The position numbers were made by a program, and so were the translations under genes. Positions 52,830 to 55,019 of a stretch of DNA of 64,000 nt are shown here, one piece after another. The stretch's first letter is position 1. Each line of letters begins with the position of its first letter. This DNA comes from Candidatus Krumholzibacteriota bacterium (GTDB lineage Bacteria > Krumholzibacteriota > Krumholzibacteriia > Krumholzibacteriales > Krumholzibacteriaceae). The stretch is taken from positions 124,001 through 188,000 of the forward strand of contig JAFGCX010000010.1 of the NCBI GenBank assembly GCA_016932415.1, written 5' to 3'. The notes under the pieces are model-generated. The model was not told where the DNA came from. It ran no database searches and was given only the letters and a program-made list of their open reading frames with translations.

Positions 52830-52876
52830 CTATATTCACTGCGAGAGACTTTTCCATCTGGCAAAGGGCTGGTCAC

Positions 52877-54253
52877 ATGAAGATCTTCAAGAGATTGATC
52901 ATATCTGTTTTCATACTTGGTCTTTTTTCCGGTTGTTCAGGCAAGGAACCTTTTACTATCCTCTTTACGAGCGACGATCAGGGTAAACTTGTCCCGGCCG
53001 GGTGAGGCGATAATAAAATGGGTGGAGTGGCCCGGCGGGCTACTGTGATCAATGAACAGAGAAGACTTGATACCGATCTGATACTCCTTTCCGCGGGTGA
53101 TTTCTATGCCAGATCGGGGATAGCCGAGATGTACAGAAGTCGTTTCCTCGCCGGGTTGATGATAGATCTTGACTACACGGCCGTGGGGTTGGGCGAAAAA
53201 GAGCTGAGCTACGGGCTGAGGGCTATAAAAGAGGATTCGGAAGCGGGACTCCCGGTGATATGCGCCAATCTCTATGAAGGCGGCAGCAGGGTATTTCCAC
53301 CCTATATTATCAAAAAGACATCCGGTGCCACGATAGGGATATTTTCACTTCTCGATGAAAGACCAAAAAGAGATTTTGCTCTGGAGATCAGAGATCCCGT
53401 ATCTGAAGCTGGAGTAATCATCGATCAACTCAGGGACCGGTGTGATTATCTCATTCTCCTTGCTCATATGAAGACGCAAAGGCTGGCAGAACTCCTGTCG
53501 CTTACAGATGGCATCGATCTTGTGATCAGAGGTCATGCGAAAACAGGAGCAGATGTCTCGGACGATTGTGCCGAAACGTTGCCGGGTAGTTTCGAGACAT
53601 CCGGGATCCCCGTCCTTTTTGCCGGCGAGTTCGGAAAAGCTGTCGGGATGGCCAGGGTCTTTCCCGGCGCTGGTGGTGTCTATGCTCTTTCCGACACAAC
53701 GCTGATAAGGTTGACCGATGAAGTGACCCCTGATCGCCCTGTCGCGGAAAAGGTGATGAGTTTCGGAGAAAGCGAAGGAGCGAGGATTCGGGAGATGAAT
53801 CTGAGCGATTTCCTCTCCAGGGATACCGTGACTGGAAAGATAAGAGAGAGTTATCTTGGAATAGATATATGCAGAAGATGCCATACCGACATAATGTCGG
53901 GGTTCATGCTTACGAAGCATTTCCGGGCTTTCAACGACCTGGCGTTGTCGGGGAGGGATACCGACAAAGCCTGCCTTCCCTGCCATACCACCGGGTATGG
54001 CCTGTTCAGCGGGTATGATATTGAAACAGAACAGGCGGGCGGTATAAACCTGCAGGGCGTCCAGTGCGAGGCCTGTCACGGACCCGGGACAAAGCATTCG
54101 CGTGATGGGAAATATAAAAAAGAAGCAGTCTCTTCCTGCAGGGTATGTCATACTCCGGAGAGGAGTCCCGGATTCGATTTCGATCAATATATGAAAAGTT
54201 TCGATCATTGCGCTCATTTTTCGCCTGGAGAAGACGATGATAAAAATAAATAG
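52877..54253 (+). CDS. Probable selenoprotein: nucleotidase-like domain fused to tetrahaem cytochrome c, in-frame TGA at codon 43
   Basis: 458 residues if the TGA at 53003-53005 is read as selenocysteine (U43). ATG 52877 opens a lipoprotein signal (MKIFKRLIISVFILGLFSGC, lipobox FSGC at Cys20). Residues 26-300 resemble the metallophosphatase/5'-nucleotidase fold, with FTSDDQGKLVPAG-U-GDNKMGG-ARRAT, then LILLAHMK and DLVIRGH; relatives have PCGC at PAGU, so U43 takes the second Cys. The first-strand metal motif D-x-H is D-x-Q, so enzyme activity is doubtful. The C-terminal 130 residues have four CXXCH haem sites (CRRCH, CLPCH, CEACH, CRVCH; residues about 331-425), cytochrome c554-like. The part after the TGA alone (from ATG 53018) would lack any export signal, which c-type haem attachment needs. 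A nonsense mutation is the main alternative. Confidence 0.72.
53026..53044 (+). promoter_or_regulatory. Candidate bacterial SECIS stem-loop
   Basis: Eight-bp stem (53026-53033 with 53037-53044, one G-U pair) around the loop GGC (53034-53036). The loop starts 28 bases after the TGA, and its first two bases are G. Known bacterial SECIS elements have a short apical loop with a G in its first two positions, 16-37 bases after UGA, on a stem of at least four pairs; this meets all of these. Confidence 0.55.
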
Positions 54254-55019
54254 ACTGACTCTGTGGAAAACGGCAGTATCATCAGCTCTCTTCCTTCTAT
54301 GTTCTTTTTCTTTCGTGAAGGGTTCGGGGATCGATCTGCTGATTCCGGGAGTATCACTTGAATCTGTCTCTTTTGACTCTGACGCTTCGGTTGAATATAT
54401 GATCATTTCTGAAGCTTATGGGGTCAATGATACTTCAAAGGTCAAGTTGTCGGTCCTTGGAACGGACAGCTGTCAGATACTTCTCGAGATCGTCTCTTCC
54501 GATTTTCCCGAAGTCGCCGAAGAAAATCTGACGATCAGGCTATATCTCGACAGCGGTATAGTAAATGCCCGTACTGCGGAAGAGGCGGGAAAGTGTATCG
54601 GCACGGTCCTGCTCAAAAAGGGAACCGGAGCTTTTGAAAAGCCTGATGACAGCGAAATAGACGAATTCGATCTTGAAAAACTGTTTTTGAAAGATGGAGG
54701 GGAGATGGAGGAAAAAGAGTTGGGAAATGAAGAGGTCGAAACTCCCGCCGGACGCTTCGAATGTTCAGTGAGGGAGTTCGCCAGAAGCGAGGAACACGAC
54801 ATAAGGCTCGGTGGGGTCGACGCGGTGAGATTCGAGGAAGAAACGAGCAGGCTGGCGGTTTCCGGCAGGGTCCCTTTCTGGGGAGTAGTGAGCAGCAGGG
54901 TCGAAAGAAGGAGTTTTACAAGGGTCAGGAGCGCCGATGGCAGGGGACGACCTCCAAGACCCAAGATAACTGTGACCGAATCGAGGCTGATCGGGTTTTC
55001 AATCCCGGACGCGAAGTGA
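54237..55019 (+). CDS. Secreted protein of unknown function, coupled to the haem selenoprotein
   Basis: 260 residues from ATG 54237, which overlaps the cytochrome gene by 17 bases, so translation is probably coupled. N-terminal signal peptide (about 1-30, AVSSALFLLCSFSFVKG). The mature part has beta-strand character at both ends and an acidic middle (residues 140-165: DEFDLEKLFLKDGGEMEEKE). A segment VETPAGRFECSVREFAR and later VPFWGVVSSRVE recalls DUF3108-like periplasmic proteins, in which a similar TPAG-F-C motif is seen; the match is weak. Possibly a periplasmic partner of the cytochrome. Confidence 0.65.
   Translation: MIKINRLTLWKTAVSSALFLLCSFSFVKGSGIDLLIPGVSLESVSFDSDASVEYMIISEAYGVNDTSKVKLSVLGTDSCQILLEIVSSDFPEVAEENLTIRLYLDSGIVNARTAEEAGKCIGTVLLKKGTGAFEKPDDSEIDEFDLEKLFLKDGGEMEEKELGNEEVETPAGRFECSVREFARSEEHDIRLGGVDAVRFEEETSRLAVSGRVPFWGVVSSRVERRSFTRVRSADGRGRPPRPKITVTESRLIGFSIPDAK

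Follow-up and report, generated by a model that had tools for sequence, protein, structure and literature searches.

The window, the 64,000-nucleotide stretch of contig JAFGCX010000010.1 analysed here, carries a plus-strand gene whose frame runs from an ATG at 52877 to a TAG at 54251 to 54253 and is uninterrupted except for one TGA at codon 43. A preliminary description of this DNA had read the frame in the same way, as a lipoprotein with four CXXCH haem sites. It had also predicted that an ORF call would start at 53018 and miss the 5' end. Calling with translation table 11 gave just that, a single truncated ORF of 411 aa. Orthologues do not share the ATG at 53018, and most of them also have the lipobox. 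The features of the locus are given below in window positions.

52877 to 54253, plus strand: predicted selenoprotein gene encoding an UshA-like and tetrahaem cytochrome lipoprotein (458 residues, Sec43)
52863 to 52868, plus strand: AAAGGG, Shine-Dalgarno-like by sequence, 8 nt 5' of the ATG
52877 to 52936, plus strand: signal peptide and lipobox LFSGC, ending at C20, predicted from the sequence
52949 to 53776, plus strand: UshA/CD73-like metallophosphoesterase-fold domain (residues ~25 to 300), from profile and structure matches
53003 to 53005, plus strand: in-frame TGA, predicted selenocysteine U43 in the motif P-A-G-U
53027 to 53043, plus strand: predicted SECIS hairpin GTGGCCC-GGC-GGGCTAC, 7 bp with a GGC triloop
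53567 to 53569, plus strand: Cys231 codon, invariant in the xGU clade (see below), candidate Sec partner
53852 to 54196, plus strand: cytochrome c554-like tetrahaem domain (residues ~326 to 440), from matches to PF13435, 1bvb and NF041198
53870 to 53884, plus strand: CXXCH 1, C332RRCH, by sequence
53972 to 53986, plus strand: CXXCH 2, C366LPCH, by sequence
54065 to 54079, plus strand: CXXCH 3, C397EACH, by sequence
54137 to 54151, plus strand: CXXCH 4, C421RVCH, by sequence
54237 to 55019, plus strand: downstream gene of 260 aa, its first 17 nt shared with the selenoprotein gene

The downstream gene, for which we found no Pfam match, adjoins the selenoprotein gene in most of the order-level relatives examined and is probably co-transcribed with it. 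The gene order LptD-HU-selenoprotein is kept in the order-level relatives and in several class-level relatives examined, which points to vertical inheritance. Taken alone, this neighbourhood does not establish that the protein is connected with lipopolysaccharide transport.

To characterize the in-frame TGA, we compared the gene with its orthologues. A search of 25 genomes of the order recovered 24 of them, and each contains exactly one in-frame TGA, always in the same alignment column and with conserved protein sequence on both sides (24/24). The sole order genome without a match is 82% complete. The source genome (3.11 Mb, 95% complete) carries the selenocysteine machinery that the preliminary description had suggested looking for, namely selA (490 bits), selB (350 bits), two copies of selD (scoring 378 and 337 bits; the latter copy itself contains an in-frame TGA) and the tRNA-Sec gene selC (52 bits against an Rfam gathering threshold of 47), which is interrupted by a contig end, with its TCA anticodon visible. 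Across the order, selB was found in 22 of the 25 genomes and in all 14 of good quality. The source genome also contains a cytochrome maturation gene. SelD belongs to the selenoprotein families verified by experiment (PMC13188914). At locus L048 (1396-2451, minus strand), SelD is itself a predicted selenoprotein, with the in-frame TGA in LTGFSSCLGU; at locus L047 (289-2556, plus strand), SelD follows a cysteine-desulfurase-like domain, judged by eye, within one 755-aa ORF.

A wider scan of genome contigs recovered homologues in Krumholzibacteriota, Eisenbacteria, Latescibacterota, Acidobacteriota, Myxococcota, Thermodesulfobacteriota, Nitrospirota, and others. Among 77 loci from other genomes in which the Sec column is present, 58 have only TGA there and 17 have only Cys; one further locus combines two genes, one of each type, and the last has the Arg codon CGA. 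This distribution is what would be expected of a position alternating between Sec and Cys, and Cys does occupy the column in homologues, as had been anticipated. The CGA locus, L122, has the motif SGR, with the first Cys changed to Ser, and its neighbour on the tree is a CGU relative; it is likely a one-base loss of Sec.

The conserved TGA column, the complete machinery, and the SECIS hairpin described below all bear out the selenoprotein assignment of the preliminary description, and judging from this comparative evidence the gene is almost certainly a true selenoprotein in which TGA43 would be read as Sec. None of the outcomes that the preliminary description had named as refuting this reading was encountered. 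If the TGA were instead an ordinary stop, the locus would make either a short peptide that is exported or a protein truncated to start at 53018, and the remainder would be a pseudogene or a sequencing error. Standard calling does yield the corresponding ORF, and TGA terminates 5 of the 12 neighbourhood ORFs examined. However, a product started at the unconserved ATG would lack the export that its four haem sites require, and we rejected this explanation as highly improbable in light of the shared TGA column, flanked by conserved protein, and the Sec machinery. More improbable still is that a variant code or a suppressor causes UGA to be read as Trp or Arg: a long frame with a single TGA would look identical, but this idea was rejected because neighbouring genes end in TGA, and thus the code is not altered, because the TGA is limited to one column with Cys in homologues, and because a SECIS-like hairpin and selA, selB, selC, and selD are present.

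Bacterial SECIS elements are described as having an apical loop of 3 to 9 nt, a stem of 4 to 16 bp, a G in the first two loop positions, and a location 16 to 37 nt after the UGA (PMC13188914). The hairpin in the selenoprotein gene lies 22 to 38 nt 3' of the TGA, and its GGC loop, 7-bp stem, and TGA-to-loop distance of 28 nt fall within these ranges. In 21 order-level orthologues (~41 to 68% identity to the window protein), A52 is encoded by GCC and R53 by CGG without exception (21/21 each); among 52 conserved degenerate sites, no others vary so little. R54 is encoded by CGG or AGG. Outside the hairpin, the codons of other conserved Arg and Ala residues vary freely (1.5 to 2.4 bits). Across 43 sequences from several phyla, whose members share ancestry, 94% of stem cells are paired and 20 cells have changed on both sides, giving a covariation score of 0.291, compared to 0.154 for shuffled and at most 0.08 for slid alignments. 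A hairpin score of at least 10 was obtained for 80/81 TGA genes but for only 3/20 other genes. These patterns show, to the extent that sequence evidence can, that the hairpin is under selection at the RNA level.

Single genes gave a fainter signal. Against synonymous shuffles, the window gene has an only mildly unusual hairpin (p ~0.06), and the same per-gene stem test gave p ~0.04 to 0.27 for most genes; thus, the SECIS argument rests on the whole set. Whole-region fold energies, compared with synonymous shuffles, gave a weak to modest separation of TGA genes from Cys genes. A longer stem spanning the TGA, which appeared in the single-sequence fold (z = -1.8), was rejected because the smaller downstream hairpin is the conserved one, and an Rfam scan of the window returned no match. 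Many deltaproteobacterial and acidobacterial members have a different hairpin at approximately +19, for example CTTGGC-GGTCTT-GCCAGG.

The preliminary description had presented the gene as a new selenoprotein family, and this part did not hold. UshA-like selenoproteins (COG0737) with a CxU motif were listed in a 2008 ocean survey (PMC2398784) and again in reviews from 2022 (PMC9312934) and 2026 (PMC13188914), and the gene belongs to this known group (COG0737, NF041198). The NCBIfam model NF041198, "UshA-like (seleno)protein," aligns with the N-terminal and the C-terminal half of the window protein (E = 3e-64), with model positions 403 to 518 matching the C-terminal cytochrome fragment, and it matches all 26 aligned proteins. 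At 217.5 bits the window protein is below the model cut-off of 275, as are some CGU relatives (207.9, 210.5, and 262.9), and its AGU departs from the CxU motif. It has the two-domain architecture of the family, and its clade falls beside CGU members on the midpoint-rooted tree, consistent with common descent. Selenoprotein identity and placement in the UshA-like family can together be regarded as very probable on this evidence. Among three papers naming the family, we found no functional study of UshA-like selenoproteins, and a literature search for Krumholzibacteriota together with selenocysteine found no paper.

Paralogues were seen alongside the family. At L003 (1249-2301, minus strand; genome region C10:35710-36354), an UshA-like paralogue has a TGA in PCGU and no haem motifs, and it retains a SECIS-like GGCCC-GGT-GGGCC stem despite a residue change from Arg to Trp. 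Similar TGA-bearing paralogues had matches in many relatives. A third paralogue, at L002 (1258-2241, minus strand), has Cys in place of Sec (SCGC) and lacks a SECIS-like hairpin in the corresponding register. Loci L104 and L107 each contain two nearby UshA-like TGA genes, the second of which has the motif CAU.

Comparison within the family revealed a change at the usual partner residue of Sec. The preliminary description had placed Sec at the second Cys of a PCGC pattern, which is correct, but the first Cys of that pattern is Ala in the window protein (AGU rather than CGU). The first Cys of CxU is missing from all 24 order-level members (Ala in 15, Phe in 4, Ser in 2, Tyr in 2, and Gly in 1) and kept in all 58 other Sec members; despite its loss, Sec is retained in 24/24. 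On a tree built by a quick method and rooted at the midpoint, this xGU subclade corresponds to one change, on a branch with an SH-aLRT value of 100. We did not find this variant, the order-wide loss of the CxU partner Cys, described elsewhere, and the preliminary description had not mentioned it. Two other cysteines, C129 and C231, are invariant in the 24 clade members. C231 sits in the loop that follows the GH metal-ligand motif, and outside the clade no Cys occupies its column; C129 is found also in a few CGU and Cys relatives.

The CxU partner Cys may be dispensable in this clade, or it may have been replaced by Cys231 or Cys129. In the latter case, a relocated resolving Cys, Cys231 or else Cys129, would take over from the lost Cys41 and form a selenenyl-sulfide with Sec. 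The invariance of both residues and the confinement of C231 to the clade, in the loop after the metal-ligand motif, speak for such a move. However, the changes occurred on the same branch, so that their correlation amounts to one event, C129 is present in relatives that have CGU or Cys, and the structure model has low confidence at residues 221 to 240. A move of the partner to C231 therefore seems rather unlikely, and since the partner loss and C231/C129 map to one branch, we put forward a functional link between them only as a hypothesis.

The N-terminal part most closely resembles CD73/UshA-type phosphoesterases, which were the top PDB matches both by profile (E down to 4e-37) and by predicted structure. 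The structure model has a mean pLDDT of 73.6, good for the N-terminal domain and poor for the cytochrome part. When the ligands that we take CD73 to use were mapped onto the alignment, D33, D75, H197, and H220 corresponded to retained metal ligands, whereas the presumed equivalents of CD73 His38, Asn117, and the catalytic His118 were Q35, E107, and K108. The two-metal site with a catalytic His that marks UshA and CD73 is thus not intact. With the catalytic His gone and one metal site incomplete, the term "nucleotidase" used in the preliminary description fits the fold and is probably wrong as a function.

A hydrolytic role could still be envisaged, in which the protein would be a Sec-containing, metal-dependent hydrolase resembling the thiosulfohydrolase SoxB, with Sec43 serving as metal ligand or nucleophile and the haems handling only the electrons of the product. 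D33, D75, H197, and H220 are conserved in nearly all order-level sequences, Glu107 stands in place of the Asn ligand, Sec lies close behind the first ligand strand, and the SoxB profile matches the family. Nevertheless, we consider this role improbable, because neither the catalytic His (replaced by K108 and others) nor the second site 1 ligand (replaced by Q35 and others) has been kept and because D75, H197, or H220 is also lost in many Sec members outside the order.

The C-terminal part, which the preliminary description had rightly recognized as a tetrahaem cytochrome, contains the four CXXCH motifs and matches Pfam PF13435 (E = 9.9e-11; 42.9 bits against a cut-off of 20.8) and the cytochrome c554 structure 1bvb (E = 1.5e-12). 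We propose that SelB and tRNA-Sec read UGA43 as Sec, the hairpin serving as the SECIS element, and that the protein would then be exported, lipidated, and loaded with haem; it is probably anchored in the outer membrane. The selenol of Sec43, which would lie in a loop just past the first metal-ligand strand, may act on a small molecule close to where the metal site used to be; the analogy with SoxB suggests a compound of sulfur or selenium, or an oxyanion, as one possibility. Sec43 would exchange electrons with the haems, which would carry them onward. We give such a haem-coupled redox role, with Sec and the tetrahaem domain forming one redox enzyme, an even chance. The fuller picture is more tentative: an order-wide UshA-like subfamily that dropped the CxU Cys and uses Sec, either alone beside the tetrahaem chain or together with C231, as a haem-coupled selenoenzyme on a dead phosphoesterase scaffold.

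These results extend an apparently uncharacterised family of predicted selenoproteins to an order of Krumholzibacteriota, in which standard gene calling drops both the signal peptide and the Sec of the UshA-like protein. They also provide a natural experiment, in that all members found retain Sec, whereas the CxU partner was lost once and replaced by varied residues, making the role of the partner Cys and the electron path from Sec to haem directly testable.

Among known systems, the window protein is most like the UshA_like_PCGU family (NF041198), with which it shares Sec at the second Cys of PCGC followed by a GG-ARR motif, and a cytochrome part placed C-terminal to a nucleotidase-like domain. 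It differs in that its clade has A/S/F/Y/G-G-U rather than C-G-U and has invariant C129 and C231, the latter specific to the clade. The second UshA-like family (NF049981, CxxU, annotated in GenBank; PMC13188914) has a related N-terminal region, but the window protein scores only 33.8 bits against its cut-off of 140, and the Sec motif differs. CD73 and Escherichia coli UshA share the fold and the four metal ligands noted above; in the window protein, however, the catalytic His, the Asn ligand, and part of metal site 1 are substituted, and a haem domain stands where the nucleotidase has its C-terminal domain. SoxB (TIGR04486) belongs to the same superfamily, with a score of 33.8 bits that is far under the cut-off of 550, and is not known to have Sec or a haem domain. 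Finally, cytochrome c554 of Nitrosomonas (1bvb, PF13435) has a tetrahaem domain like the one at the C terminus of the window protein, where it is instead fused to a Sec domain.
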